Source: a virus
Strand: one strand, 5' to 3'
Virus record (IMG/VR): IMGVR_UViG_3300024346_000247
Location: 1-35,073 of that record
Length of the DNA stretch: 35,073 nucleotides
The position numbers and the translations under genes are program-made. Positions 3,297 to 28,806 of the stretch are shown here, in pieces. The number at the start of each line of letters is the position of its first letter. Position 1 is the first letter of the stretch. The notes under the pieces were generated by a model, which worked only from the letters and a program-made list of their open reading frames with translations, was not told the origin of the DNA and did no database searches.

Positions 3297-4385
3297 TTAT
3301 CGGTTTTGTAATTGAAGTGTTCTGAGAGTAATGAAGTCACTCTTATCACCTGATTGCTTAAACTGAGCACTTAAGTTCTTGATTGATTTACTTGTACGAC
3401 TAGCAGGTTTTTCCGAACCAGCAGCACTAGGTGTAGAATTACTGCTAGGGTTAAGTCTTACATTAGACTTTGTACTCTTTACAGCTTTTCGACCATAGAT
3501 GCTATTAGCGGCGTGCGCTAGCAGGTAGGGCATTTGTGCTCTAACGTCAGGCGGAAGGTTAGCCATTAATGTATCAACCCTAGGGTCACCCATAATAGCT
3601 TGGTACTCACGCCGTGTATCGTTGTCTTCGCCCTGTAACCAAGGAAGCTCAGCTTCAGCTTGAGCAGTTAAGTGCTCCTGCATCTGTTTGCTTTGCTCTA
3701 TTGCTTGGATCTTTTCGAGGCGGTCAGGCAGGAACTTGTCACGGGCTTTACGTGCCTGCAATAAAGCATTGCGGACATCGGCCTTGGTCATTTCCTTGCC
3801 TTCGACTTCTGTGACTACGTCATCAGCTTCATATCCGTCTGCATTGAACATAATGTCCTCTGCCCATTCAATAACGTTACTAGCATCCGTTGCCTTAGAT
3901 TGTAGATCCTCAAGGGTTTCTACATTAGCAAATGGATTGTTGGTAACTTCTTTCTTTGGTGTAAGCGGATTGTTTTGCTCGGCAGAAAGTCGGGCTTCAA
4001 TTTGTTGAAGTTTTTCTTCTGCTGCCTTACGTTTAGCTGTGAGTTCTCCAAAGCGAGCTACTGCACGGCTGCCTAGCTTATCAGCTAGTTCCCGCAGTTC
4101 CACTTCGGACATATCATCTAAATCAATCTGAGAAAGAACTTGCTCATCTGATTCGGCTTCTGAAGTTTCGTCTTCAGTATCTTCTACTGACTCCTCAACT
4201 TCTTCTGCTTCTTCATTAGCAATTTCGTCGGTAACCTCTTCTTCAACCTCGGGAGCTTCTTGCTCTTTTGGTTGAGGCGTTGGCTGCCCTAAGCGTTGGA
4301 TCGCAAAATCCTCCGCTGTGATATTTGTCTTTTCCACTGTAGTATTGTCGGGTTCAGCGATTCCCGTTGTGACTTCTGTATTCAT
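3297..4385 (-). CDS. Scaffolding protein, 362 aa
   Basis: A very acidic N-terminal half (about residues 40-100 with long runs of E, D and V/A, for example EAPEVEEEVTDEIANEEAEE) leads into predicted coiled-coil helices (ELRELADKLGSRAVARFGEL, AEEKLQQIEARL). The C-terminal part has a Ser/Asn-rich linker and a basic end (SKSIKNLSAQFKQSGDKSDF). This charge layout, acidic N-terminus and basic C-terminal helix, is typical of phage scaffolding proteins that guide capsid assembly. It lies directly upstream of the capsid gene in the same direction. A candidate extended -10 promoter stands 41 nt upstream. Confidence 0.8.
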   Translation of the reverse strand: MNTEVTTGIAEPDNTTVEKTNITAEDFAIQRLGQPTPQPKEQEAPEVEEEVTDEIANEEAEEVEESVEDTEDETSEAESDEQVLSQIDLDDMSEVELRELADKLGSRAVARFGELTAKRKAAEEKLQQIEARLSAEQNNPLTPKKEVTNNPFANVETLEDLQSKATDASNVIEWAEDIMFNADGYEADDVVTEVEGKEMTKADVRNALLQARKARDKFLPDRLEKIQAIEQSKQMQEHLTAQAEAELPWLQGEDNDTRREYQAIMGDPRVDTLMANLPPDVRAQMPYLLAHAANSIYGRKAVKSTKSNVRLNPSSNSTPSAAGSEKPASRTSKSIKNLSAQFKQSGDKSDFITLRTLQLQNR

Positions 4386-6761: not shown

Positions 6762-6957
6762 TTAATTGTTTTTTTACTGATTTACTTATGTCGTGGATAT
6801 GTCCCTTGTAAACTCCAATTTTATCACATAATTCCTGTGGACGCATTGGTTTGTCAATCTGATGCCTAACATAACGATTAAGGTACTCCCAGCCAGCAAG
6901 TCTGTTGACCTGCTCGTCGATCCATTTTGGATCTAAAGTTATGTCATCCTCTTCCAT
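6751..6957 (-). CDS. Hypothetical protein with possible helix-turn-helix, 68 aa
   Basis: I do not recognise it. The C-terminal half (PMRPQELCDKIGVYKGHIHD, then ISKSVKKQLNAK) has the spacing of a helix-turn-helix, with a basic last helix. The N-terminus is acidic (MEEDDITLDPKWIDEQ). It lies two genes after TerL and overlaps the portal start by 11 nt, so it is translated with the portal. It could be a small regulator or packaging helper. The helix-turn-helix reading is by eye and weak. Confidence 0.55.
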   Translation of the reverse strand: MEEDDITLDPKWIDEQVNRLAGWEYLNRYVRHQIDKPMRPQELCDKIGVYKGHIHDISKSVKKQLNAK

Positions 6958-8994: not shown

Positions 8995-9125
8995 TATTTA
9001 CTCTTGGGTCGGGGCTGCTCTGTCCTAGGTGCAGATGGTTTCTTACTCCAGTCAATACAGTCGTAGTTTTTACGCTGCTTCTCAGCGTTGTGTCCCTTAC
9101 GTGGGCCGCTTCCTTTAGTGCTCAT
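8994..9125 (-). CDS. Small basic protein between the terminase genes, 43 aa
   Basis: An ATG at 9125 gives 43 residues starting MSTKGSGPRKGHNAEKQRKN followed by YDCIDWSKKPSAPR and a basic end. It is highly basic with no hydrophobic core, so probably unstructured or nucleic-acid binding. It overlaps the TerS end by 11 nt and the TerL start by TAATG, so all three are probably translated together. I recall small proteins with a similar IDWS core at this place in other marine podoviruses, without known role. The tight overlaps on both sides support it as real. Confidence 0.7.
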   Translation of the reverse strand: MSTKGSGPRKGHNAEKQRKNYDCIDWSKKPSAPRTEQPRPKSK

Positions 9126-9702
9126 CTATTTCTACTACCTCTGCTTGTTTAAGTTTTTGGATTCTCTCCTTGGCTGCCTTGATTGTTTCGTCGTAGTCCT
9201 CCTGTGTAATGACCTGGCGGTCTTCAGTTATCTGCGTGGCCTCGCCACGAGCAGTGAATGCCTGCCTAGCTGCATTGGATACCGATATAGAAATCTCCTT
9301 TAGGTCCCTGACTGTAGGCTTTAACTCCCCTGACTCTAGGTCTTCCCGCACTGAGTTAATAAGGTCCTCCTCTAGGCTAGACAGATTTAGGTAACTCTTT
9401 GCGGCAATCTTGCCGCTTAAGTCCCTGAACTTCCCTAGGTGATCCGTGTAGTCCGACAGGACGCTGATGACTGTCTCCCTGTCTATCCCGTACTTCTTAA
9501 CAATCCTGGTCTGGCTGTTGCCAGTACTATACAAATAAAGGATCGAGGCTACCTTTTCGGGGTTGTGCCTAGACAGACTCCGCACCTGAGCGATCTCTTT
9601 CTTGTCGGCTACTTCCCAGATGGCCCCTTGGATCTCCTTCATCAATGCCTCTTTATTGCACGGGGAAGCTTGCTTCCCCTTATTGTCAGCTTCTTCTAGC
9701 AT
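9115..9702 (-). CDS. Terminase small subunit, 195 aa
   Basis: TerS proteins recognise phage DNA and start packaging. A helix-turn-helix is visible at about residues 51-85 (VASILYLYSTGNSQTRIVKK, then YGIDRETVISVLSDY). It is followed by long helices (SSLEEDLINSVREDLESGEL) and a charged C-terminus ending in EVVEIDEH. Position directly before TerL supports the call. Two starts compete. ATG 9702 lies 6 nt after a -10 box and would be leaderless. ATG 9642 (residue 21) has an AAGAGG Shine-Dalgarno 5 nt upstream. A hairpin of 8 bp (9662-9679) lies between them. Confidence 0.75.
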   Translation of the reverse strand: MLEEADNKGKQASPCNKEALMKEIQGAIWEVADKKEIAQVRSLSRHNPEKVASILYLYSTGNSQTRIVKKYGIDRETVISVLSDYTDHLGKFRDLSGKIAAKSYLNLSSLEEDLINSVREDLESGELKPTVRDLKEISISVSNAARQAFTARGEATQITEDRQVITQEDYDETIKAAKERIQKLKQAEVVEIDEH

Positions 9703-9708
9703 TTAAAA

Positions 9709-9737
9709 ATTAAATCAAAATAAAACTTGACTGTCAA
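9709..9737 (-). promoter_or_regulatory. Main late promoter candidate ahead of TerS
   Basis: On the minus strand a perfect TTGACA (9732-9737) is separated by 17 nt from TTTAAT (9709-9714), a 5/6 match to the -10 consensus. This is the best sigma70-type promoter in the window and faces the whole packaging and head operon. The -10 ends 6 nt before the ATG at 9702, so the message would start at or next to that codon. Confidence 0.7.
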
Positions 9738-9764
9738 TCTTATAGTTCATTAGACTCAAAGCAT

Positions 9765-9778
9765 ACTCCTTAAGGAGT
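9765..9778. repeat. 14-bp palindrome ACTCCTTAAGGAGT, copy 1
   Basis: A perfect 14-bp palindrome 28 bp upstream of the late promoter -35. Identical copies stand at 9855-9868 and 10304-10317. Exact conservation of an even palindrome is expected for a dimeric DNA-binding protein site. Operator function is inferred. Confidence 0.7.
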
Positions 9779-9854
9779 CCAAGCCTTAAAGAGTTTCTTG
9801 CCCGAAGGGCAAAAGAAATAAGGTATAACCAAAATCAAAGGATAACTTAACAAC

Positions 9855-9868
9855 ACTCCTTAAGGAGT
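9855..9868. repeat. 14-bp palindrome ACTCCTTAAGGAGT, copy 2
   Basis: Identical to the copy at 9765-9778, 90 bp away. It lies on the late-promoter side of the control region, just before a G-tract and T-tract (about 9899-9914). Confidence 0.7.
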
Positions 9869-10244
9869 ACAGGTAGCTGGTTGGGTATAGGGCTATGAGG
9901 GGGGTATTTTTTTATGGGGCGGTTTATGAATAAACAATTCAGACTTAAAAATTAAAAGCAACCCCCTCCCCCCATCAACGGCTCCTCCGCAAGGGACATG
10001 ACGCTACCCCGATCGGGCACGGCAAGGCACCGCAGAACCCCAGTATAAGCGCAGCTAATAGTAAGTCCGCAACCCAGCTCCCATAAGCCCAGCTAATACC
10101 AAGGCACGGCAGGTTCCAGCATAAGCACAGCTAATACCAAGGGCATCGGCTCGGGGGCATAAGCACAGCTAATCAAGGCGGGACGCTCGGGCATGAGATA
10201 AGTTTTTCTTCTTCGGAAGGGGAAAGGATTACAGCATAAGGAAA

Positions 10245-10264
10245 TCTACTCTACTCTACTCTAC
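10245..10264. repeat. TCTAC microsatellite, four units
   Basis: Four perfect tandem copies of the pentamer TCTAC lie inside the 38-bp-phased array, in a non-coding region. It may be simple slippage. Confidence 0.8.
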
Positions 10265-10303
10265 TTCACCTACATAAGCACAACTGATGCTAGGGACTCT
10301 TGT

Positions 10304-10317
10304 ACTCCTTAAGGAGT
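10304..10317. repeat. 14-bp palindrome ACTCCTTAAGGAGT, copy 3
   Basis: Third perfect copy, located where the 38-bp array lacks a recognisable ATAAG box (expected near 10312). The palindrome appears to have replaced or overwritten that box. Confidence 0.7.
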
Positions 10318-10612
10318 GTTCGTAATAGCTACGGGGATATGGCAATAGGATAAGGAAGTCTTATGTCAGTATTCTAAGATAAGCGCAGCTGTCTGCTGCT
10401 TCTCAGCATTAGCGCATCTACTTAAACGGGGACGGCTACAGGGTGCCACAGCTCTGGAAAATGTAATTGCGACTGAATCTCAACAAAGGTCGATATCGCT
10501 CAGAAAGCCTTTGCAGCGGCGGCGAGGGGTAAGGTGCCAGTCGAAAATCGGAGGCCATGCTGGGGACGTGAGGTGCCCTGCTGTCGATTTGATTTTCTGC
10601 TTTTTAGAGCAT

Positions 10613-10694
10613 TATCAACGACTTACGAAAGTTTATTAACGACTTACAGAACTTCTATCAACAACTTACAGAAGTCTATCAACGACTTATGGAG
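10613..10694. repeat. Four iteron-like direct repeats with DnaA-box-like cores
   Basis: Direct repeats start at 10613, 10634, 10656 and 10677, spaced 21, 22 and 21 bp. The shared core is TATCAACGACTTACAGAAG with few changes. Including the preceding base, the 9-mers are TTATCAACG, TTATTAACG, CTATCAACA and CTATCAACG, each resembling the DnaA box TTATCCACA at 6-7 of 9 positions. Spacing near two helical turns puts all sites on one face of DNA. This is the arrangement of plasmid and phage iteron origins; the origin role is inferred. Confidence 0.7.
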
Positions 10695-10765
10695 CATATG
10701 GATGCAGTCGGGGAACTGGTCTCAAAATAGCCGAGAAAAAAAGATTAAAATAATTTCGAATCGAG

Positions 10766-10793
10766 TTGACAGTGCACCATCTATTCACATTAT
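10766..10793 (+). promoter_or_regulatory. Candidate early promoter
   Basis: A perfect TTGACA (10766-10771) is followed after 16 nt by CATTAT (10788-10793), a 4/6 -10 match. It faces the early operon. Transcription from here would cross the terminator at 11046-11077 before reaching the first gene at 11125. Confidence 0.45.
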
Positions 10794-11045
10794 GGCTGAT
10801 GTAGTACCGTTCTTTTCCAGTCATCCGAGCCATCCCCGAGGGGGGTTGCCAGCCTCAGAAGTGCCTCACGGCTCTTGGCTGGTCGTTCCCCGACCGAGAG
10901 CCTCTCATGATACCAGCGCAAGCCACCGACCAGTGCATCGGACATACGACCGCATAGCTGCACCGCAATGACGAAGGGCTAAGGATCCTCCCAGCATAGA
11001 CAGCCGCCATATGGCGAATACAGACCGACACTGTAATAACACCAC

Positions 11046-11077
11046 AGCCTGCTAGCCTAACCGCTAGCGGGCTTTCT
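11046..11077 (+). terminator. Repeated intrinsic terminator, copy 1 (upstream of the first early gene)
   Basis: An 11-bp stem (11046-11056 with 11063-11073, one G-U pair) is followed by TTTCTGG. The same design, with stem AGCCTNCNAGC and tail GGGCTTTCTGG, recurs at 11514-11547 and 12325-12357. The T-run is short, so termination may be partial. Confidence 0.65.
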
Positions 11078-11080
11078 GGG

Positions 11081-11124
11081 TATAAGCATTCTGCTTACAA
11101 CTAACACACATATATATACAAACT
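11081..11124 (+). promoter_or_regulatory. Repeated early leader with small hairpin, copy a
   Basis: The leader holds an AAGCA-TTC-TGCTT hairpin (11084-11096), then ACAACTAACA and an A-rich ACAAACT directly before ATG. Related leaders stand before the genes at 11590 and 11882. A TATATA hexamer lies 6 nt before the ATG. Confidence 0.55.
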
Positions 11125-11513: not shown

Positions 11514-11547
11514 AGCCTCCCAGCCGCAAGCTGGGGGGCTTTCTGGG
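11514..11547 (+). terminator. Repeated intrinsic terminator, copy 2
   Basis: Stem AGCCTCCCAGC (11514-11524) pairs with 11530-11540, followed by TTCTGGG. It lies 8 nt after the stop of the first early gene and shares design with copies at 11046 and 12325. Confidence 0.65.
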
Positions 11548-12324: not shown

Positions 12325-12357
12325 AGCCTCCTAGCCATCCGCTAGGGGGCTTTCTGG
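12325..12357 (+). terminator. Repeated intrinsic terminator, copy 3
   Basis: Stem AGCCTCCTAGC (12325-12335) pairs with 12341-12351, followed by TTCTGGG. Closely similar to copies 1 and 2. It lies in a 121-bp gap before the gene at 12427 that shows nothing else clear. Confidence 0.65.
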
Positions 12358-14034: not shown

Positions 14035-14238
14035 ATGAGCACACAAACAGACACACAAGACCTAGTAAGCCTACTCACCGACTTCGAGATGGGCGAGCTG
14101 GACTCCTACGATACCCTCAAGCTCTTCGGGGCACTGATCAGCACGGGCACCATCAACAGCCTGCAAGGGTACTACCAGCGCACAGCACGTGACCTAGTGG
14201 ACGCAGGTTACCTGTCCAACGAAGGGGACGTACTATGA
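14035..14238 (+). CDS. Small protein coupled to the transglycosylase, 67 aa
   Basis: Starts MSTQTDTQDLVSLLTDFEMG and is helical with few charges after residue 30 (LFGALISTGTINSLQGYYQR). The stop overlaps the start of the lytic transglycosylase (ATGA), so translation is coupled and the two may work together or simply be expressed at the same ratio. No membrane helix is clear, so a holin role is not supported. Function unknown. Confidence 0.6.
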   Translation: MSTQTDTQDLVSLLTDFEMGELDSYDTLKLFGALISTGTINSLQGYYQRTARDLVDAGYLSNEGDVL

Positions 14239-14669
14239 GGGCACTAGCCTTCGCCCTCCTGCTCGTGGGCACTAGCCTCACGGGCACGGGGGAGACCCTA
14301 GAGCGTGCCATACAGGCACTCATACAAGTCGAGAGTAACGGACGTAGCTCCGAGATCGGGGACGCAGGCAAAGCCTACGGCATCCTCCAGATTCACGACA
14401 TAATGATACAGGACTACAACAGGATCACAGGTGCCAGCCTCCAGCACTCAGATGCCTTCGATGCACAGACATCAGAGGCTGTATGCCGTACTGTCATTAG
14501 CTACTACCTACAGGACATCGAACACCCTACCCTCAAGCACGTTGCATTCATCTGGAACGGCGGCGGCGGGGCACGGCACCGAGTCGAGCACCCTCGGCAA
14601 GATGCAAAGCAAGGAAATCTCAATGAGTACTACCACAAGGTACGCTCAGCCTATCACCAACAACAATAA
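14235..14669 (+). CDS. Secreted lytic transglycosylase-like lysin, 144 aa
   Basis: Lytic transglycosylases cut peptidoglycan glycan chains. An N-terminal signal peptide is clear (MRALAFALLLVGTSLTGTG). The catalytic Glu33 lies in IQVESNGR, the ESxG pattern of the SLT/GH23 fold, followed by AYGILQIH (47-54) as the GxxQ block and by FIWNGGGGA (105-113) in place of the usual AYNAG block. Length is short but complete for the catalytic core. It overlaps the upstream gene by ATGA. A lysin in the early block is unusual; it may serve lysis or act earlier. Confidence 0.75.
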   Translation: MRALAFALLLVGTSLTGTGETLERAIQALIQVESNGRSSEIGDAGKAYGILQIHDIMIQDYNRITGASLQHSDAFDAQTSEAVCRTVISYYLQDIEHPTLKHVAFIWNGGGGARHRVEHPRQDAKQGNLNEYYHKVRSAYHQQQ

Positions 14670-17436: not shown

Positions 17437-17874
17437 ATGAACATATTACAACAGATACAGTCGGAGCTGAAAGCTCCCAAAGGCCAGAAGAATAACTTCG
17501 GCAACTACTCGTACCGATCAGCCGAGGATATCCTCAGTGCGGTTAAGCCCCTACTACAGAAGCACGGAGCAGCACTCATATTGACTGACGCACTGGTGGC
17601 ACTTGAAGGACGCATCTTTGTTAAGTCTACGGCCTGCCTGCATCACGATGGCGGCACACCGTTTACCGCAGATGGATTTGCAGAGCACGCCGAGACAAAG
17701 AAGGGAATGGATCAAGCACAGATTACTGGCAGTGCCTCCTCCTACGCACGTAAGTACGCTCTTAACGGCCTGCTATGCATCGACGATACCAAAGATCCAG
17801 ATGCAACAAACACTCACGGGAAGGGCGAACCTTCCTACAAAAAGAAAACACAAACCCTGGATGGGTTAATATAA
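17437..17874 (+). CDS. erf: ERF-family single-strand annealing protein, 145 aa
   Basis: ERF proteins anneal complementary single strands in phage recombination and genome circularisation. The family pattern is clear: a YRSAEDILSAVKPLLQKHGA segment (about residues 26-45), then GGTPFTADGFAEHAETKKGM and QAQITGSASSYARKYALNGL before a DDTKDPDATN tail. Length is at the short end of the family but holds the whole core. It is next to the small protein at 17874 by TAATG overlap and near the RecB-like exonuclease, forming a recombination module. Host RecA may be bypassed. Confidence 0.88.
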   Translation: MNILQQIQSELKAPKGQKNNFGNYSYRSAEDILSAVKPLLQKHGAALILTDALVALEGRIFVKSTACLHHDGGTPFTADGFAEHAETKKGMDQAQITGSASSYARKYALNGLLCIDDTKDPDATNTHGKGEPSYKKKTQTLDGLI

Positions 17875-18125
17875 TGGAAACACAAACATACGACAACAAC
17901 AACAGTGGTGCACTCTTCCCTAACGACCGTAAGGAGAAGGAGACTCACCCCGATCTCACAGGCTCTTGCGAAGTTGACGGCAAGGAGTACTGGTTCAAGG
18001 GCTGGAAGAAAACCAGCAAGGCAGGCAAAGCTTTTTTGTCTGTAGCGTTCGACCCGAAGGAAGCAAAGCCAGACGTAGTTTCATCTGGAGTTGCCCCAAT
18101 GAGCGACGATCCTATCAGCTTCTAG
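17874..18125 (+). CDS. Possible single-strand DNA-associated protein, 83 aa
   Basis: ATG 17874 overlaps the ERF stop (TAATG). The product has a disordered N-terminus with Asn residues (METQTYDNNNSGALFPNDRK), then a compact beta segment (LTGSCEVDGKEYWFKGWKKT, then SKAGKAFLSVAFDPKE). Small proteins with this WKKTSKAGKxFLS pattern are common beside phage annealing proteins; an OB-like or ssDNA-associated role is my inference. The next gene follows without gap (TAGATG). Confidence 0.65.
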   Translation: METQTYDNNNSGALFPNDRKEKETHPDLTGSCEVDGKEYWFKGWKKTSKAGKAFLSVAFDPKEAKPDVVSSGVAPMSDDPISF

Positions 18126-18529: not shown

Positions 18530-19876
18530 ATGACAAACATACACGACTTACTAGAACCAGACACAGTACTACCAAACAATTTATCAGCAGAGCGGGCATT
18601 GATTGCCTGCTGCTTACTCGGGGATGACTCAGATGCATACGACAGTATCTCTGGGATCGTACAGCCCGATGACTTCTATGCCCTACGGCACCAGCTTGCT
18701 TACCAAGCTATAGCTGAGCTATCGGGGGCAGGCCAACCTATCGACGAGATCAATCTTGTCGAACGTCTCAAGGCTAACAACAGCCTCGACGAAGTCGGAG
18801 GCATCGCAGGTGTAATGGCCTTAGCTGGGGCCGCCGACACACCCTTCAGAGTCCTCAACTATGCAGGCATAGTAAAGGAGAAGAGTAACCTACGCAGGAT
18901 GCACCGAGCCTACAAGCTGGCAGCCGAGCGCAGCGCATCAGAGCAAATGGATTCAGCCGAGATCCAAGGACAGATCGACAGCGAACTGAGTGCGGTCAAC
19001 GGAACCGAGTCTGGGGTTGAGAAGATCTCCAACTCAGTCGAGCTACTGCAAGAAGAGTTCAAGCAGATGCAAGAGGGAACCTACGTCAAGGACGTAGTAC
19101 GTACGCACATCCCGCACCTAGACGAGAAGCTAGGTATGGGAGGCATCGGAGCAGGTGAAGTATGTATCATCGCTGCACCTACCTCCTGCGGCAAGTCCGC
19201 CGTGGCCATTAACATTGCACTACGTGCAAGTAAGATAGAGTCCGTACCTTCTGCCATCTTCTCTTTTGAGATGCCACAGAAGCAAATCGCAAGGCGTATG
19301 ATCCAGACACTCAGCGGTGTCAACCTACGCCAGATCGAAGAGAACGTAGCTACACCCGCCAAGGTGAAGTCAGTGCACGCAGCCAACGAACTGCTGGCAA
19401 GCCTGCCCATCTACACTGTGCACGCAGTCAAGGGGGCAGATGATCTACGGAGTCAGATCAGACTACTGGTACGTACGCACGGAGTTAAGCTCGTGGTCAT
19501 TGACTACCTGCAACTAATCCCATTCGGGAAGAACGTAGGTAAGACCGAGGGTATCTCATCTATCTCTCACAAGATAAAGCAGATAGCAGTGGAGCTGGAG
19601 ATCGGCATCCTGCTGTTAGCACAGGTCAACCGTGAAGGTGCCAAGCGTGAAAGCGGCCTGTCACTGTACGACCTAAAGGACTCTGGTGACATTGAGAATG
19701 ACGCAGACGCAGTCATCCTTATGTGGCCTAAGAATGGGGACATCGAGTCAGCCAAGAAGGTTGACCCCGAAGGACCTTACACTGAGTTGCAATACTCAGT
19801 TGCAAAGAATCGAGAAGGCGAACGTGACGTTCGTGGAATCTTCAAACTATATCACTGCGTAGGAATTATAAAGTAA
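18530..19876 (+). CDS. dnaB: Replicative DNA helicase, DnaB family, 448 aa
   Basis: DnaB unwinds DNA at the replication fork as a hexamer. The N-terminal domain starts at NNLSAERALIACCLLGDDSD. The RecA-like domain has Walker A APTSCGKS (216-223), FSFEMP (244-249) with the catalytic Glu, Walker B LVVIDYLQLI (321-330), the LLAQVNRE switch (362-369), and DLKDSGDIENDADAVI (381-396). Length is typical. There is no primase or polymerase in the window, so host enzymes are presumably used. An out-of-frame ATG at 18520 shares the AACTATG context; 18530 gives the conserved N-terminus. The stop overlaps the next ATG. Confidence 0.95.
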   Translation: MTNIHDLLEPDTVLPNNLSAERALIACCLLGDDSDAYDSISGIVQPDDFYALRHQLAYQAIAELSGAGQPIDEINLVERLKANNSLDEVGGIAGVMALAGAADTPFRVLNYAGIVKEKSNLRRMHRAYKLAAERSASEQMDSAEIQGQIDSELSAVNGTESGVEKISNSVELLQEEFKQMQEGTYVKDVVRTHIPHLDEKLGMGGIGAGEVCIIAAPTSCGKSAVAINIALRASKIESVPSAIFSFEMPQKQIARRMIQTLSGVNLRQIEENVATPAKVKSVHAANELLASLPIYTVHAVKGADDLRSQIRLLVRTHGVKLVVIDYLQLIPFGKNVGKTEGISSISHKIKQIAVELEIGILLLAQVNREGAKRESGLSLYDLKDSGDIENDADAVILMWPKNGDIESAKKVDPEGPYTELQYSVAKNREGERDVRGIFKLYHCVGIIK

Positions 19877-20208
19877 TGCTAAACAAAATTAAACTAACTG
19901 AAATCGTAGCCGAAGAGTTCGGCACTAAACATAACATCATTCGTGGCAAGTCCCGCACTAGACGGGCATCGTATGCCAGAGATGCACTTGCATATGTAAT
20001 GCACCTGCACAACTGCACGCACGAAGAGATCTCACGCCTAGTCAACAGGCACCGCACCAGTGTAACGCACGGACTCGACAGGGTACGGGCACGCATTGAA
20101 TCCAAGGCAGAGGACTGCACCATCTATTGCTCTGCACTTCAAAACGTATGCACCGAGGCTGGTGTACAAATCAAATACAAAACCAATGAAACTATCGAAG
20201 AAGATTAA
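19876..20208 (+). CDS. DnaA domain IV-like DNA-binding protein, 110 aa
   Basis: The sequence SYARDALAYVMHLHNCTHEE followed by ISRLVNRHRTSVTHGLDRVR matches the C-terminal DNA-binding domain of DnaA, where the RDHTTVxHA signature corresponds here to RHRTSVTHG. It contains no ATPase domain. The start overlaps the DnaB stop (TAATG), so the two are made together. The likely role is origin recognition and helicase recruitment, perhaps at the DnaA-box-like iterons at 10613-10694. It could instead be a DnaA-binding-site competitor that blocks host initiation. Confidence 0.8.
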   Translation: MLNKIKLTEIVAEEFGTKHNIIRGKSRTRRASYARDALAYVMHLHNCTHEEISRLVNRHRTSVTHGLDRVRARIESKAEDCTIYCSALQNVCTEAGVQIKYKTNETIEED

Positions 20209-21471: not shown

Positions 21472-24400
21472 CTAGCGATCAAAGGTAGGAGTTACTCCTT
21501 CTTTCCTTTGCTTCTTTTGGTACTTCCTCTGGGACTCTACGCCACCTCCAGTGCGGTAGTACCATACGTCAGACAGAGGAGAGTTACGCCAAGATTTAAT
21601 CTCGAACAGTTCCTTGTCGCCCTTGACCCACGATCTCAGTGACTGTTCACCGTCGATCATAATGTTAATCGCAGGAGGAGTGAAGCGTTGAATTACACTT
21701 TCTACTACACCCTTATTCAGTGCACTAGAAGTAGTGTACCTAGACAGTCCAAACATACCCAGCATATTATTCATTACGTGCTCGGGGATATAGGTATCCT
21801 TGCCTGCAATCCAGTCATCGAGTAAGTCCGATGGTAGGCCAAACATAGTCAACAGGGTAGCCATATATGCGAGCCTACGTAGCGCAACGGTACGTTGCTG
21901 CAATGTTTTTCCTGGGCCACCAAGGTCATTCATAAACTCCTGTCTGTTGTAGTTCAAGTCCAGTAGCATAAAGGTACTAAGCTTGTAGAACAGACGCTTG
22001 CTCGGATCAGTCTGGTATCCCTCTGGCACCTGCAAGTAAGTCAGCGGCTGCCGCTCAAGTAGTTCGGATAGTAGTGCCTCCTTAATCTCTTTGCTCTCTG
22101 CCGCCCTATCTAACTTGAGATCGCTGATGGCCTTCCGTGCACCCTCTGGACCCATTTTAATAGTAAGGTAGTCAACCAACTGCTGGTGCTTCTTAGATCC
22201 TACTGGTGCATTGGCTTTCTTGACGAAGTCATCGTAGGCAGCCTCGACACTAGCGTGCTTCATAGCTGTATCCATTTGACGGAACGGGACCAGACGGCTA
22301 AGACCAAAGTCCAGTGCCTTGGTTAGGAAACTAGGATCTTCAAACTCAGCAGATAGCTGAGTCTTAGCAATACCGAAGTCCCTCTCGATGTCGAACCTAC
22401 GGTTACCTGTAACGGTACGGTAGGTGCCAGAGACTACTCCACCAAGTCCACGGTACAGTGCCACCTTGTACAAGTCCATAATCTGTACGAGCACAGGGCC
22501 AGGGTTGATAAGTGTAGCCATGTACGTAAGCGTACCGAGGCTCTTTAAAATTTCATTCTCCGCTTGGAACTGAGACGTAATCAACTCGGTCAAGCTCTTG
22601 AGTTCATTTGCATCCGCTTGATCAATTTGACCTGCGGTAAATAGTTGCTCGGTAAGTTTACCAAGCTCACCTAGTAAGCGACCCTCGCCCTTCTTAGTAT
22701 CACCCACAACCTTGAAGCTTTCAATCGCTCGGCTCATGTTCGTAGTGTACTTGCCAAAGGCAATGCCTGGGTTGTCGTAGAACTTTAGCTTGTCCTCTGG
22801 TATCAACTGAATCTCACGTGCCTTAACATTGCCTGGAAGTTTAACACCGTTAAGATCCAAACGGAACTTACCTTGCAGGAAGTCCTGAAAGAAACGTGCA
22901 CGCTCGGTCTCTTGCATTTCAGGCAGAGGTGCAGGGTTACCATCTGCATCCTTCATTTCACTACGACGAATGTTCTCTTCGTTGACCAGCAGCTCAAAGG
23001 TACGCTTAGTCTTATGCCCGTAGGATTTAATTAGGCCCTCAAGATCTTTGATTACACGAGGGAAGTAGTCCTCAAGGTAACCAATCTTAGGCATACCGAG
23101 TTCATTGTACTCAGTATATATCTCCTCCAAGATAGGCTGTACGTCCAAGCGGTACATATTAAGTAAGCCGTGCTTGTGAAGTAGCGCATCCCTGCGCTGC
23201 ATCTTAGCTTTATTGGACGGAAGGTTTGCCTCCTCTGGAGTAGGGCTAAAGAACATAAGCTGCTTGAGTTCTTGGAACTCTGCACCCTTAACAGCATTCA
23301 ACTTATTAAAGAACATCTCTGTCTGCTTCCTGTACCCTATAGACCGCATGCGAATAGCAGAGTCTAAGTTCTGAAGTATACGACCAAACATCGGATTGAT
23401 ACGATTCAGTCGTGTAATGACTGGAGTCAGGTACTTCGATGCAGTCTTACGGAAGGCACCGTCGAGCCACTTGCGCTCTTCACGGATGCGCTCAGATGCA
23501 TCCTGGCCTACCCTTTCACCCGCTTCGGTGTTCTCCTTGGCAGTGTTCTTGTCTGTTGCATCGTAAGCCCGTGCTACCACGTCCTGATTCTTGGGTCGGA
23601 GTGCAGGGTCTGCTGCCTTCAGCAGCTCCACAGAGTCAACAATGACCTGTGCAGCTTCAGGGTTAGTCTTGATCATTGGCCCCAGTACCTTAGCCATATA
23701 AGCCTGTACCGAGCGAAGTAGTTGTACGATGGCATTCCAAGCTGGACCGCCTTGGCTTTCCATTTGGTACTGCTCGGAAAACTCTCCATATAATAAATTC
23801 TGTATTACTGCACGGCTGTACTCTGAGCCATAGGCAACATAGTCCTCGGGCTTGATGTTCTGGTACACATCTTTAATATCCGAAAGCTCTACATCGGTAA
23901 GGGTTTTACCATAGGCATCGAAGAAGTCTCTCCATACCTTGCCTCCCTCGGCCATAGAGAATTTCTTTCTGGCCGAAACCATTAGGACTTGGTGCATAGC
24001 AGCGTGAATTATTTCTTCACGCATTGCTGCACGTACGCCAGCCTTGCTGCGTTTAAGCAGCAGCATAGGGTTGTACTCAATGATCCCCCTAGTAGCATTG
24101 TAACGTGCTACATAGTCGGTGTTCCCCATTCGCATAACGATAGGAGTACTGATCTTATCGCCTATAGGAAAGAACTCCTTCTCGATGGCATCCTGTACTT
24201 GGCCGCCATTGTCGTAGGTATCTCTGGGACCACGGTCCTCTACCTCGGTGTCAGTAGCCTGAGCTGTTACGTCTTCTTGACTGGCTAGTCTTACTCCCTC
24301 TTCGTATGTATCTACTTCTGGAAAGCCAGTTCCATCGTATTCACTTCCGACCGTTCCATCGAAACGCATAAACACTACGTCTGGCTGACCTCCATTGAAG

Positions 24401-27400
24401 TTTCTATAAGTTTGAGTAGACCAACCATCGGGTTGAAACTCAGGATTAAACTTTAATCTAGCGACTGGAGTAAATCCATAGCTTGCGTACTTGACGGGAA
24501 GAACAGTTTCAAATCCATTTAAAAACTTAACCTTACCAGTAGAGATAGCCATATCAAAGGCTGCATCTACATCTTGAGCTGTAGCATTAGAAGATTTAGT
24601 TACACTGGATAGTTCTCCATCTGGGGAGATTGCCATAGTAACACTTTCGCCACGCTCGCTAGAGGTAATGATTAGATCATAACCTTTATAATCAGAAGCT
24701 TTGAATACATCAACAGATGATCCAAATTTATTCCCGTCTTTATTATCTTTCGCAATTCTTGCGAATCTATTCTCGCCTAGAACGGGGCCTCGCTTAACAA
24801 CTTTAAGGCTTCCTTTTGGTTCTTTGCCAGTCCCATTTTTATAACTGACCTTACCTGTGTAGCTTGAGAGCCTGTTAATTGATCTTGTAACTTGTCGTTT
24901 TCTGTTTGATTCAACTGAGCTGCTTTCATATACCGCTCCGCTTCCTCTGGATTTGAGGTAATCAGAGATAACACGTTGTCTAAGGAATTTGTCATATTCT
25001 TTTCTGTTTTCATTTTGTCTTGTTTTTGCTACGGCATCAGGGAACTCAATGTCACGTTTAACTAAACGTTCTTTAGCTAAGAAATCAAGTATCAAGTTAG
25101 CATCTGCTTCACTCCTCGTCGATCCATCGACAGGATAGAAGACATCGGCTGGCTCATCAAAGGAAGACTTAAGTGCACCCGCTGCACCAGTCCACCCGTT
25201 GCGATCCCATATTTGTTTTTCTCCAAACCATACTAAAGCCTGCAAATCGTCTGGGTTCATGTTCAGCTTTTGTGCTGCCCTACGAAAAACTAACTGCCCT
25301 AATGCAAAGTCAGGATTATTTACTGCTGTCTCTTGAGATGGAAGAATCCTAGCATCCGCCTGCCCAGCGTAGATAACCCTACGCAATAGACGAGCAGCCC
25401 ATACATCAATTGTTGCCTCCAGAGATTCACCATTCAAGTTCATCGTGAACTGAGGTGTCTTAGGGGTCATCTTGTCCTTGCTTAGTCTCTCATTAAACCA
25501 GACTTGGGCCAATGCCTTTAATGCAGGGTAAGAGTTTGTTCCGTATTTTTTACCGCTAGTTTGCGCTGGCTCCAAGTTATAATGCTCGGCAGCCGAGCTT
25601 AGTAAAGCACTCGGCTCAGACTTCTTAATCATCTCAGGTGTGTATAGCACACCCTTACTGTTCTTTACCTTATCTTTAAGTAGTAAATCCCCGAGTGTAC
25701 CAGCCTTCATTTGGCCATACAACTTTAAGTACTCTTTAATATTTGCATCAAACTCTCCCGCTTTAAATCTATTATATAGATCTACGCTAAAACGAAAGTT
25801 AGTTTCAACTGGTGTTTGAGCAGAAGTAGTTCCTAATAACTGAGTAAAGATTGGCAAGTCATTGCCAAATATCTGACTGAGGCGTTGACGCATTCTACCA
25901 TACCAACCAATTCCAGCAGCAATGGCTGGGTCATTCATCATAGTAGCAGCTTCATTTGCTACTTGGTCGGCTAGATTATCTACGGCCCCCGATGCAATCG
26001 CTGCATTTAATTCCTGCTGTTGTGGACTTGACACAACATAATGAAAGGAACCATAGTCTGGAACGGAAGTATCAGTGGGTCCAGGGCCACTGTAATCGCT
26101 GATAAAAGGAGAACTTAGTAGATCGTAGTCCCGTGTTACTTTCTTTTCTTTGGGCTTTGAAGGTGCCGCCTCGGCCACCACGTCTCCTTCAATTTGTTCA
26201 TTCGTTCTGTATTCCCTCATGTTCCTGTAATCCAGGACAACACCATATCTGTCATAGCTTTTATCCTCGTCAGACATCGCTTCACGAACTTCTTGAAGAG
26301 TCATAGGGCTTGTTTGAGGGTAGCCGTTAAACGGATCTACAAATTCATAGAGCGGTTCTCCCTCGGCCTTATCTAATGGTGCCGCCTCGGCCACTACGTC
26401 TGGTCCTAGAGACAGCCACTCATTACTTGGTGTAGCTCCGTACTGAGGATTCTTAACTAGGACAAGCGGTCCGATCTGAATAGCTTGGTCGCCTGCGACC
26501 ACCTCCTGCATTGTCTCACGGTTATAGAAGTAACCTCTGCGCTCTGGGTCCATACCTACCTGTATGTAAGACGGATCTTTGAGGGCCTTGTCGGCCATCT
26601 TCTTAGCTTGAGTAGAAGTTACATTTTTGTATGTTCCCCGAATCGTAGCTATAGTAGTTTTGTCTTTTCCAGTTGCTATGTTTAAGGCGGCGAGGCCGTT
26701 TTTTCCAGCCACGCCAAGCTGCACGTTTTCAAGAACCCCTGTAGATTTATACGAAAGTGGATTACCAGCCTGAAAACTGTTACCTTTCGGTTCGTGAATT
26801 ACAGGAATCCAAGTTCCGTAATATTTGTATGCGGGAATATCCAAACGCATAGCTACTAGCTTTCCGTCAGGAACTACTGCGTTAAAGAGAGGAACTTGAT
26901 TCTCTTTCAAGGCAGTGCGCATTTCCGAGTTAGTCTCAGGGGCAGGCACAAAATCATAAGCGTGCACTGGTTTAAACTCATCCGCAACCTCTGCTAACCT
27001 GCGGCTTTGCTGACGATCACCAGCCTTAATGTTTTCCTTAAGTATCTTGGCTTGCTCTTGGATCTCTGGAGTGCGCTTCAAAACATCCTTGAAAGACATT
27101 GACAGGCGGTCCACGCCTGCCACTTCAGCCGTTACATCTTGTGCAATAGCAACCGAGATAGGCTTTCTGCTGTTAGGGTTATAACCCTTCTTCATCTGCG
27201 CACGTACTTCCTTGCCCATTGCATTAATTTCAGCAGGTGAATACCCAGCTTCAATTAACTCTGACCGAACCCTAGAAGCGTTCTTGCCTTTGCCATTTGC
27301 CATATAAACAGCAAGCTCAAGGTCCGAGTTATATGCAACCTTCTGACCGCTGTACCTTGGTTTAGACTGAGACATCCTTGGAGAGATACGGAAGTTACCA

Positions 27401-28806
27401 CGTACTGCTGGTGCTTGTTCTCTAGCACGCTTTTCTAATTGATCAACTACCGCTGGAGCCTCACGGCGAAACTGCTCTTCGCTCATACCAGCTTGTTTAG
27501 CTCTGGTCTGTATGTTGGATAGTTCTTGCTCTGGATCTAAATCTAAAACATCTGGCTCTGGTGCCTGCTCTACAGCAGCCTCTGGCTGCACTGGTACTTG
27601 CTCCCGTGTAGGATCGGGTGCTTGGTCAGGTAGGTCTAGCTCTTGTTCAGGGCCAACAGGCACAGGTGCACTAACTGTATCAATTTGCATTGGGTACGTT
27701 GTATCGTACCGACCAGCTAGTTCTGCTTCGACTGCTGCCCTTGGATCTTGGCCAGCATCAATGGCCAATGATACCGTCTTTACTGGACCATCAATTGGCT
27801 TGTAGGTTACTGTAACCGCATCGGGGATAGTAAGCTCTGATCTTTCTTGAACTGGTTTATTTAAGTCTGCCTTTGTTCCGCCTGATGGTGCACTTGGTGC
27901 ACCTCCAATAAGTTGTACCCCTCCGCTCACTGTCCCACCTACTACAGCACCTACGCCGAACTCTAAAGCACGCTTCCTGAGTACGTCCATTGACACAAGC
28001 TCACGGTCTTCGTCGTACAGTAAAGATGCAATGGTATCAAGCGACTGCCCTTGCAGTGCTTCAGTGCCGCCTTCTGCCAATGAGGATTCCCCCATTTGAC
28101 GAAGTGCACTCTTTTGCTTTTCAATAGCTTTCTTTAGAGCCTTATTAGATACGCCACCCTTTTGAAGTTGTCTCAAGACAGGACGCATTATCTTGCCTAA
28201 TGCTGCTGTCTCAAGGGCAGTACCAATTGCAGTCTGAGCAAGCATACCAACAAGAGCTTGATCCTTTTCATTTTCATCAAAGTCCGTGTATCCTTTTTGA
28301 AGCGTCTGCTCCATATCGCCAAGAAACTCAGATGACATTTGACCACCTGTAGTAAGAGCCGCTGCACCTATCATTCCAGGAACGTTACCCGCAGCAAAGC
28401 CTGCTGCACCAGCAGCAGCGGTAACTGGTAATTGACCAATGCCACGGAACACTTGCCCTGCAAAGGATTCTCCAAACTCTCTATCTAATCCAACGTTTTC
28501 ACCAATGCCTTGACCGTACTGCCGTAGATCCTGAGCGGCCTCAAGCATACTATCGCTTTGATAAACTTGTCCTGCCCACTGGGTAATGCCAGCAATAGTA
28601 CTAACAGTAGACTCAGCTGCACCAGTAAATAATCCCTTAACAACGTCTAAAGCAAGAGGATCTTCTGCATCTATAACCTTAGGCGGTAAACTTTGTTGAG
28701 TAGTTTGCTGCTGTAAAACATTAAAGATATCACTTTCAGAAGCACCCTCTGGGTGCGTGACTTTGTATTGCTTACCTTGAGGGTCAGTTACTATACTTAC
28801 TGGCAT
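21472..28806 (-). CDS. Giant internal virion (ejection) polyvalent protein, 2,444 aa
   Basis: This one gene covers 21% of the window. The N-terminus (VTDPQGKQYKVTHPEGASES) is a small domain common at the start of such proteins. Residues about 50-310 are Gly/Ala-rich hydrophobic helices (AAAGAAGFAAGNVPGMIGAA), about 372-428 a Pro/Glu/Gln linker. Further segments: about 750-770 MDPERRGYFYNRETMQ; about 980-1015 GNDLPIFTQLLGTTSAQTPV; about 1385-1487 a GNAT-like region (SISPDGELSSVTK-type start as ISPDGELSSVTK, then YASYGFTPVARLKFNPEF, QPDVVFMRFDG); about 1590-1605 REEIIHAAMHQ, a possible metal-binding helix. The C-terminal 700 residues are helical. Ejection with the DNA and action in the cell are inferred. 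Confidence 0.75.
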   Translation of the reverse strand: MPVSIVTDPQGKQYKVTHPEGASESDIFNVLQQQTTQQSLPPKVIDAEDPLALDVVKGLFTGAAESTVSTIAGITQWAGQVYQSDSMLEAAQDLRQYGQGIGENVGLDREFGESFAGQVFRGIGQLPVTAAAGAAGFAAGNVPGMIGAAALTTGGQMSSEFLGDMEQTLQKGYTDFDENEKDQALVGMLAQTAIGTALETAALGKIMRPVLRQLQKGGVSNKALKKAIEKQKSALRQMGESSLAEGGTEALQGQSLDTIASLLYDEDRELVSMDVLRKRALEFGVGAVVGGTVSGGVQLIGGAPSAPSGGTKADLNKPVQERSELTIPDAVTVTYKPIDGPVKTVSLAIDAGQDPRAAVEAELAGRYDTTYPMQIDTVSAPVPVGPEQELDLPDQAPDPTREQVPVQPEAAVEQAPEPDVLDLDPEQELSNIQTRAKQAGMSEEQFRREAPAVVDQLEKRAREQAPAVRGNFRISPRMSQSKPRYSGQKVAYNSDLELAVYMANGKGKNASRVRSELIEAGYSPAEINAMGKEVRAQMKKGYNPNSRKPISVAIAQDVTAEVAGVDRLSMSFKDVLKRTPEIQEQAKILKENIKAGDRQQSRRLAEVADEFKPVHAYDFVPAPETNSEMRTALKENQVPLFNAVVPDGKLVAMRLDIPAYKYYGTWIPVIHEPKGNSFQAGNPLSYKSTGVLENVQLGVAGKNGLAALNIATGKDKTTIATIRGTYKNVTSTQAKKMADKALKDPSYIQVGMDPERRGYFYNRETMQEVVAGDQAIQIGPLVLVKNPQYGATPSNEWLSLGPDVVAEAAPLDKAEGEPLYEFVDPFNGYPQTSPMTLQEVREAMSDEDKSYDRYGVVLDYRNMREYRTNEQIEGDVVAEAAPSKPKEKKVTRDYDLLSSPFISDYSGPGPTDTSVPDYGSFHYVVSSPQQQELNAAIASGAVDNLADQVANEAATMMNDPAIAAGIGWYGRMRQRLSQIFGNDLPIFTQLLGTTSAQTPVETNFRFSVDLYNRFKAGEFDANIKEYLKLYGQMKAGTLGDLLLKDKVKNSKGVLYTPEMIKKSEPSALLSSAAEHYNLEPAQTSGKKYGTNSYPALKALAQVWFNERLSKDKMTPKTPQFTMNLNGESLEATIDVWAARLLRRVIYAGQADARILPSQETAVNNPDFALGQLVFRRAAQKLNMNPDDLQALVWFGEKQIWDRNGWTGAAGALKSSFDEPADVFYPVDGSTRSEADANLILDFLAKERLVKRDIEFPDAVAKTRQNENRKEYDKFLRQRVISDYLKSRGSGAVYESSSVESNRKRQVTRSINRLSSYTGKVSYKNGTGKEPKGSLKVVKRGPVLGENRFARIAKDNKDGNKFGSSVDVFKASDYKGYDLIITSSERGESVTMAISPDGELSSVTKSSNATAQDVDAAFDMAISTGKVKFLNGFETVLPVKYASYGFTPVARLKFNPEFQPDGWSTQTYRNFNGGQPDVVFMRFDGTVGSEYDGTGFPEVDTYEEGVRLASQEDVTAQATDTEVEDRGPRDTYDNGGQVQDAIEKEFFPIGDKISTPIVMRMGNTDYVARYNATRGIIEYNPMLLLKRSKAGVRAAMREEIIHAAMHQVLMVSARKKFSMAEGGKVWRDFFDAYGKTLTDVELSDIKDVYQNIKPEDYVAYGSEYSRAVIQNLLYGEFSEQYQMESQGGPAWNAIVQLLRSVQAYMAKVLGPMIKTNPEAAQVIVDSVELLKAADPALRPKNQDVVARAYDATDKNTAKENTEAGERVGQDASERIREERKWLDGAFRKTASKYLTPVITRLNRINPMFGRILQNLDSAIRMRSIGYRKQTEMFFNKLNAVKGAEFQELKQLMFFSPTPEEANLPSNKAKMQRRDALLHKHGLLNMYRLDVQPILEEIYTEYNELGMPKIGYLEDYFPRVIKDLEGLIKSYGHKTKRTFELLVNEENIRRSEMKDADGNPAPLPEMQETERARFFQDFLQGKFRLDLNGVKLPGNVKAREIQLIPEDKLKFYDNPGIAFGKYTTNMSRAIESFKVVGDTKKGEGRLLGELGKLTEQLFTAGQIDQADANELKSLTELITSQFQAENEILKSLGTLTYMATLINPGPVLVQIMDLYKVALYRGLGGVVSGTYRTVTGNRRFDIERDFGIAKTQLSAEFEDPSFLTKALDFGLSRLVPFRQMDTAMKHASVEAAYDDFVKKANAPVGSKKHQQLVDYLTIKMGPEGARKAISDLKLDRAAESKEIKEALLSELLERQPLTYLQVPEGYQTDPSKRLFYKLSTFMLLDLNYNRQEFMNDLGGPGKTLQQRTVALRRLAYMATLLTMFGLPSDLLDDWIAGKDTYIPEHVMNNMLGMFGLSRYTTSSALNKGVVESVIQRFTPPAINIMIDGEQSLRSWVKGDKELFEIKSWRNSPLSDVWYYRTGGGVESQRKYQKKQRKEGVTPTFDR
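24777..25013 (-). CDS. Possible overprinted gene inside the giant gene, 78 aa
   Basis: In another minus-strand frame within the giant gene (residues about 1264-1343) a 78-codon frame encodes a regular helical protein: MTNSLDNVLSLITSNPEEAE from its second Met, RYMKAAQLNQTENDKLQDQL, and SVIKMGLAKNQKEALKLLSE. Its composition looks more protein-like than chance, and its leader ACAAGACAAAATG resembles the phage early leaders. In the same segment the giant protein is basic and low in complexity. Chance cannot be excluded. Confidence 0.35.
   Translation of the reverse strand: MKTEKNMTNSLDNVLSLITSNPEEAERYMKAAQLNQTENDKLQDQLTGSQATQVRSVIKMGLAKNQKEALKLLSEAPF

Follow-up and report, generated by a model that had tools for sequence, protein, structure and literature searches.

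The closest described systems are found in phages, bacteria and mobile elements. One account of ori lambda, the origin of phage lambda, describes it as four iterons together with an AT-rich region (PMC7466680). Domain IV of DnaA, in turn, has been noted outside DnaA: a passage on transposases of TnpA-REP subclass 2.1 (TIRYT) attributes to them a Bac_DnaA_C domain and flanking repeats unlike the DnaA box (PMC6006769), and a ‘DnaA-like replication initiator’ is annotated in the Bacillus podophage Pony, in a passage that contains neither a domain analysis nor iterons (PMC3853050). In the literature searched, which took in only a minority of subscription papers, no report of a stand-alone DnaA domain IV serving as a phage initiator was found, nor did we find a passage on DnaA in PMC6813254.

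Here, we describe a locus in which four direct repeats and a stand-alone DnaA domain IV-like protein, hereafter D4, occur in the same phage DNA. The window, i.e. the whole stretch of DNA analysed, is the IMG/VR record IMGVR_UViG_3300024346_000247 with its 35,073 bases, and its relatives constitute a family of uncultivated phages. Like ori lambda with its O and P proteins, the locus displays four direct repeats beside an A/T-rich tract and a phage DNA-binding protein as the candidate reader. Unlike in ori lambda, however, this candidate is a DnaA domain IV rather than an O-type protein, the array is situated in a non-coding gap instead of inside the initiator gene, and the phage brings its own DnaB, whereas the helicase used by lambda is delivered by the phage protein P. 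In its mode of action, the system would resemble lambda O with its iterons; because, however, the candidate reader is a DnaA domain IV and because a PHROGs scan of 23 window proteins (part of the ORFs) detected no member of an O-like initiator family, we do not file it in the lambda O-iteron family.

The comparison with bacterial DnaA and oriC is similarly two-sided: D4 has the domain IV fold, but it lacks domains I, II and III, its recognition helix is changed, and its candidate target measures 13-14 bp, in contrast to the 9-bp TTATNCACA. As in TnpA-REP 2.1, a DnaA domain IV-like domain outside DnaA is accompanied by repeats that do not resemble the DnaA box; yet the domain is fused to a Y1 transposase in those proteins, while D4 stands alone beside DnaB. 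Pony is likened to the present phage by annotation alone, i.e. by a DnaA-like initiator having been named in a phage.

The repeat array and its conservation

The ORF list places leftward late genes from 9.7 kb on, rightward early genes from 11.1 kb on and leftward genes again from ~21.5 kb onward; end repeats were not found in the 35,073-base record. The early block encodes an exonuclease-like protein, endonuclease VII, an ERF annealing protein, an SSB-like protein, DnaB helicase and D4. The features in and next to the gap in front of this block are:

9115..9702, minus strand: putative TerS, the gene nearest the array, named from its place before TerL and with homologues in relatives
9703..11124, no strand: 1.4-kb gap between the divergent late (TerS side) and early blocks, which holds the array (ORF list)
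10585..10612, plus strand: T-rich stretch abutting iteron 1, kept in the closer array-bearing relatives (alignment, AT content)
10613..10625, plus strand: iteron 1, TATCAACGACTTA (sequence; kept in relatives)
10634..10646, plus strand: iteron 2, TATTAACGACTTA, 21 bp after iteron 1 (sequence)
10656..10668, plus strand: iteron 3, TATCAACAACTTA, 22 bp after iteron 2 (sequence)
10677..10689, plus strand: iteron 4, TATCAACGACTTA, 21 bp after iteron 3 (sequence)
10735..10762, plus strand: A/T-rich tract ~45 bp past the last iteron (sequence, AT profile)
10766..10793, plus strand: sigma-70-like promoter match TTGACA-16-CATTAT, ahead of the early genes (motif scan)

The four direct repeats TATYAACRACTTA thus occupy positions 10613-10689, with a spacing of 21/22/21 bp, copies starting at 10613, 10634, 10656 and 10677 and the consensus TAT[C/T]AAC[G/A]ACTTA; only three other matches at up to two mismatches exist in the whole 35 kb. 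When tandem 13-mers 19-24 bp apart were searched for with up to three mismatches, four copies were obtained in the window as against two (19 runs) or three (one run) in 20 first-order Markov sequences. Since the Markov sequences reach at most three tandem copies, the array is not a product of chance; it is also kept in relatives. The four repeats at 21-22 bp spacing that the initial annotation had picked out are real. Tandem direct repeats in helical phase, as found here, are a feature of iteron-type phage origins. The T-rich stretch in front of the array is a possible unwinding or contact segment and the A/T-rich tract behind it a possible unwinding element.

The same annotation had described the repeats as resembling DnaA boxes; that they are such boxes was not supported. 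When 68 distinct units from relatives are compared, one base accounts for at least 97% of cases at 12 of the word's 13 positions and for 90% at the remaining one, figures that are inflated by a search allowing one mismatch in the 13; downstream of the 13-mer, the units mostly continue with Y, R, any base, A and A. This conservation therefore extends well beyond the part that resembles a DnaA box, and the conserved unit is 13-14 bp, longer than and different from such a box. Compared with TTATNCACA, three copies have two mismatches and the fourth is further off (range 2-3), and none of the four repeats comes within one mismatch of TTWTNCACA. Moreover, sites with two mismatches to TTATNCACA number 297 in the window vs 350 expected, i.e. 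they are rarer than chance.

Relatives were gathered with a TerS query, of which the best 80 of 259 relatives were used, many of them carrying repeats at the corresponding place; two DNA-pattern scans for the repeat itself added further phages, so that the counts below are ‘at least’ figures among the matches listed. Merging by shared exact 400-mers, which can pool the features of near-identical contigs, condensed 369 loci into 171 groups among the matches listed, 29 of which possess a tandem array; as the repeat itself was the target of some scans, this number should not be read as a fraction of 171. At least 900 nt upstream of TerS are available in 48 groups (among the matches listed), comprising 27 with two or more repeats, nine with one and 12 with none. 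When only the 36 groups holding a locus found via TerS (best 80 of 259 relatives) are considered, these numbers are 19, six and 11, respectively.

The phasing is 20-22 bp in nearly all relatives, with one gap of 33 in L073. Five of the 27 groups carry the array at the same place but in the opposite orientation with respect to TerS; the A/T-rich flank, which accompanies most of 30 arrays, does not move with it and remains on the side of the early genes. Inversion with retention of place fits an array bound by a protein, not an RNA element that is read in one direction. Accordingly, a structured RNA or type III toxin-antitoxin repeat was rejected: the array has no Rfam family (a single sub-threshold match lies outside it), its fold energy is ordinary (z-score 0.05, with DNA parameters only) and its orientation flips between phages. 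A coding repeat was discarded as well, for although the array lies inside a 145-aa GTG-started ORF (10534-10971), the repeats advance in steps of both 21 and 22 bp and are inverted in relatives, so the reading frame is not kept.

Other repetitive elements are found nearby. On the TerS side of the array, a 38-bp tandem repeat occupies positions 10082-10173 of the same non-coding gap in 2.4 copies, and 2.9 copies of it are present in L094:1588-1700. Between the early genes, a GCTAG...GGGCTTT motif (up to two mismatches) recurs at 11063, at 12341 and near 11530, with an inverted partner at 11044; this motif may constitute a repeated attenuator or terminator.

The D4 protein and its neighbours

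The early genes of concern here are:

17775..18125, plus strand: SSB-like protein (phrog_18154, E 8.1e-17)
18530..19876, plus strand: DnaB-type replicative helicase with N- and C-terminal domains, whose stop codon overlaps the D4 start (domain matches, sequence)
19876..20208, plus strand: D4, a 110-aa stand-alone DnaA domain IV-like protein and candidate iteron reader (PF08299, AlphaFold, Foldseek)

That the last of these resembles only the DNA-binding domain of DnaA, as had been proposed from the sequence, was borne out by a match to PF08299 (Bac_DnaA_C) with an E-value of 5.2e-11 and 42.9 bits at a cut-off of 31.5. A profile search likewise matches DnaA chains. The AlphaFold model of D4 (mean pLDDT 87.5, pTM 0.81; alignment of n=16 sequences) finds its best PDB matches via Foldseek in 3pvp and 1j1v, both of them DnaA domain IV on DNA, with TM-scores of 0.81-0.84 by target length, and the structural comparison that had been suggested thus came out in favour of domain IV. 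Domain I and the AAA+ domain III of DnaA are absent from the protein, whose 110 aa amount to domain IV plus a short tail. As the defining ATPase is absent, D4 is not a DnaA. In E. coli, it is domains I and III of DnaA that contact DnaB, and their absence from D4 counts against the origin reading given below. The presumed coupling of D4 to DnaB was confirmed too: stop and start codons overlap as TAATG, and D4 begins on the final base of the DnaB stop codon.

The DHTTV signature in the helix-turn-helix (HTH) of DnaA contacts bases, and the residues through which DnaA touches DNA were reportedly described by Fujikawa in 2003. This signature is missing from D4. In the recognition segment, RHRTSV of the window protein stands opposite RDHTTV of DnaA, and R-x-R-(S/T/A)-S-V is present in 15 of the 16 aligned D4 sequences, with R58, S62 and V63 invariant and R60 nearly so. 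Judged by these residues, the natural reading is that the binding specificity of D4 would have changed relative to DnaA.

The suggestion that polymerase and primase are not phage-encoded agrees with the Pfam scan, in which none of 26 window proteins (small ORFs being covered partly) matched a DNA polymerase, primase or helicase loader. Three D4 queries returned no D4 from 50,697 phage records, and the genome contigs searched contained neither a D4 relative nor an exact repeat pair; these phage records and contigs thus yielded neither an isolate nor a host carrying D4. A weak D4-like ORF (E 3.8e-8) on L197, a contig from the word scan, was dropped, the contig being without a match to the window proteins compared.

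Two further proteins of the window deserve mention. A 2,444-aa protein encoded at 21472-28806 on the minus strand has DUF7178 (residues 1082-1193) as its sole Pfam match and is perhaps, as a guess, a virion internal protein. The early block also encodes an SLT transglycosylase-like protein (14235-14669, plus strand), with a borderline Pfam score of 21.4 vs a cut-off of 21.3 bits.

Distribution of array and D4 among relatives

If an array extends far enough to be informative, D4 comes with it: among the groups listed, D4 directly follows DnaB in all 12 array groups that continue past the 3′ end of DnaB, with array and DnaB-D4 on single contigs in each case (G001, G008, G011, G012, G013, G017, G018, G023, G032, G037, G043 and G057). 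In G060, D4 is cut by the contig end, and G045 and G015 end inside DnaB and are uninformative. Both regions are visible in 17 groups, where two or more repeats occur in 12 of 14 with D4 vs none of three without it (Fisher p 0.015, with relatedness ignored). None of the eight groups that have DnaB and lack D4 has an array (0/8), the TerS-side gap being visible in only three of them, with 0-1 repeats; one of the eight, L091, has a DnaB only 29% identical. Among 30 window genes compared, no other early gene tracks the array, i.e. is present with it and absent without it.

On a DnaB tree, the D4 label changes five times by parsimony, three of these changes being forced by well-supported branches. 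The D4-less labels of L355 and L368 are not real, as these contigs end 75 and 139 nt past DnaB; one of the changes (L355) is thus false, which leaves perhaps two or more genuine exchanges. One relative without D4 is C75C1 (OQ984151), which is complete and circular. Its TerL, TerS and DnaB are 75%, 57% and 45% identical to those of the window, and the order exonuclease - endonuclease VII - Erf - SSB - DnaB is similar, yet it has no D4, no repeat was found in it, and it encodes a 139-aa lambda O-like initiator instead (L125:18747-19166, minus strand; phrog_11233, E 1.8e-29; phrog_678 ‘O-like’, E 2.3e-7). This points to an exchange of initiators within the phage family, and the strongest clue to the function of D4 comes from this O-like protein in a relative that lacks it.

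The slot after DnaB is filled in other ways as well. In G027 (L139:11593-11940) and in L365/L366, it holds an HTH_Tnp_1-like protein, which in L139 starts at the DnaB stop; the Pfam scan covered the proteins of L365 and L139 and placed the former over the cut-off and the latter just under it. In G025, the slot holds a 143-aa protein without a Pfam match, and a similar protein is present in G024.

The link between array and D4 is not strict, because of an array-less clade that has D4 (seen in one member) and two D4-less phages with one repeat each. The clade comprises L012, L013, L014, L016, L018, L024, L026, L027 and L094, whose TerS are 90-99% identical to that of the window, making them its nearest relatives by this protein. 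In all nine, the flanks align while window positions ~10444-10746 are replaced by other DNA, and a repeat within one mismatch is absent. L094 (G031) is the sole one that spans both regions, the D4 region of the other eight lying outside the fetched DNA; it has kept D4 at 85% identity with the recognition segment unchanged, and L004 of the G031 group has the same segment, NRHRTSVTHG. In seven contigs, the replacement DNA contains CGTTAGGAAG twice, 21 bp apart, with TTA-x-GAA shared with the repeats in the same phase, and this pair may possibly represent a diverged repeat site. The two D4-less phages, L087 (G027) and L078 (G025), have one exact repeat upstream of TerS. A single repeat is also found in the L063/L068 clade, whose D4 is divergent and escapes detection by Pfam, and in the record of G033, where D4 lies ~2.8 kb from DnaB. 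Hence, the connection that the initial annotation drew between the iterons and the protein stands as a co-occurrence, with exceptions, and not as a strict pairing. With single repeats in phages without D4 and further repeats near distant TerS (only 49-58% identical), the word seems older or broader than its pairing, as an array, with D4.

Readings of the array

Our preferred reading, to which we give slightly less than an even chance, is an iteron-type origin that has D4 as its reader, DnaB being encoded next to D4 and the remaining enzymes coming from the host. The array with its phasing and conservation, the predicted fold of D4, its coupling to DnaB and its co-occurrence with the array are observations, whereas binding, melting, placement of DnaB and use as an origin are what we infer. 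The array at 10613-10689 would be the initiator-binding part of the phage replication origin. D4, a domain IV that lacks the ATPase and has altered recognition residues, would occupy the 13-14 bp repeats next to one another, at intervals of two helical turns, and the bound protein might bend or strain the neighbouring A/T-rich DNA. The phage DnaB would then be placed at the array, delivered by D4, and host primase and polymerase would carry out synthesis. A bolder form of this reading, which we hold to be somewhat less probable, takes a DnaA domain IV alone, ATPase-free and directed to a new target site, as the whole phage initiator; it would mark the four iterons as an origin for the adjacent helicase and would be evolutionarily interchangeable with lambda O-like initiators.

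If true, D4 would be a very small DnaA-derived initiator in which the reading of sequence is split from ATP-driven melting, the helicase being supplied next door, and the locus would show an iteron origin working without an AAA+ protein or a separate loader. It would also provide a reader-site pair open to swapping and testing, for which the D4-less relative with its O-like protein and the clade with a replaced array, whose one fully seen member kept D4, are ready-made comparisons. The conserved array and the small protein encoded directly after the helicase together suggest a stripped-down start of phage DNA copying that is now testable.

GC skew had been put forward as a check for an origin at ~10.6 kb, but it gives no support for an origin there. 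The detrended cumulative GC skew of the window spans 260, within the range of 300 shuffled sequences (mean 159, largest 283), and in none of the six array-bearing records checked (the window, G012, G017, G018, G037 and G057) does the minimum fall at the array. Only for C75C1, which has no repeat, and for G025, which has one, is the minimum located within the gap on the TerS side, and the genes change direction in that gap as well. On the plus strand, the GC skew of third positions turns from positive to negative near 10 kb, where gene direction changes too; by the usual convention, such a change has the polarity of a terminus. AT skew in the window tracks gene direction.

A transcription switch and a packaging site are serious rivals to the origin reading. 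In the former, which we regard as unlikely, D4 or another early HTH protein on the repeats would switch a TerS-side late promoter on or the early promoter off. DnaA itself is described in one passage as able to act as a plain transcription factor (PMC5448010). The position of the array between divergent units, ~75 bp upstream of the sigma-70-like promoter match (one of 4 matches vs 2.0 expected in the scan), would suit such a switch, as would an orientation that flips while the place is kept and a weak match of D4 to sigma-70 region 4, below the cut-off. However, D4 is coupled to DnaB and not to a regulator gene, the D4-less relative has an O-like initiator, and a stretch resembling the promoter at 10766..10793 is also visible in L094 and L016, which are without the array.

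The packaging reading, which seems improbable, makes the repeats a pac- or cosB-like packaging start bound by TerS, the product of the nearest gene. TerS has weak HTH matches in the Pfam scan and no PHROG match. For 27 of the 29 array groups (among the matches listed), no more than 1.5 kb separate the array from a TerS homologue, the fetched DNA of the other two, L168 and L199, containing no such homologue; repeats also occur upstream of TerS only 49-58% identical to that of the window (L180, L194, L198, L223 and L226, all via the word scan and among the matches listed). Against a TerS site, the TerS of L013, L014 and L094 are 98-99% identical to that of the window in the absence of any repeat, and the array can be flipped relative to TerS, as in the five of 27 groups above.

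Very improbable is a third rival, in which the repeats are low-affinity sites for host DnaA and D4 is a competitor or anti-DnaA that shuts host initiation: the 5′ part of the repeat, TTATCAACG, resembles a DnaA box, a one-mismatch box, CTATTCACA, is located at 10781 and a stand-alone domain IV could compete for boxes, but the conserved unit continues beyond the box, with ACTTA invariant in the 68 units (one mismatch allowed), box-like sites are no commoner than chance, and DHTTV is replaced in D4, so it should read normal DnaA boxes poorly.

Finally, the repeat word was also encountered in inverted pairs of the GTAACTCGTTGA...TATCAACGACTTAC type, namely near 6828 on the plus strand of L166 and near 4377 and 5655 of L181 (reverse-complement coordinates). 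Both contigs are without a homologue of the TerS, TerL, DnaB, ERF or exonuclease of the window, and their inverted pairs resemble small palindromic repeats.
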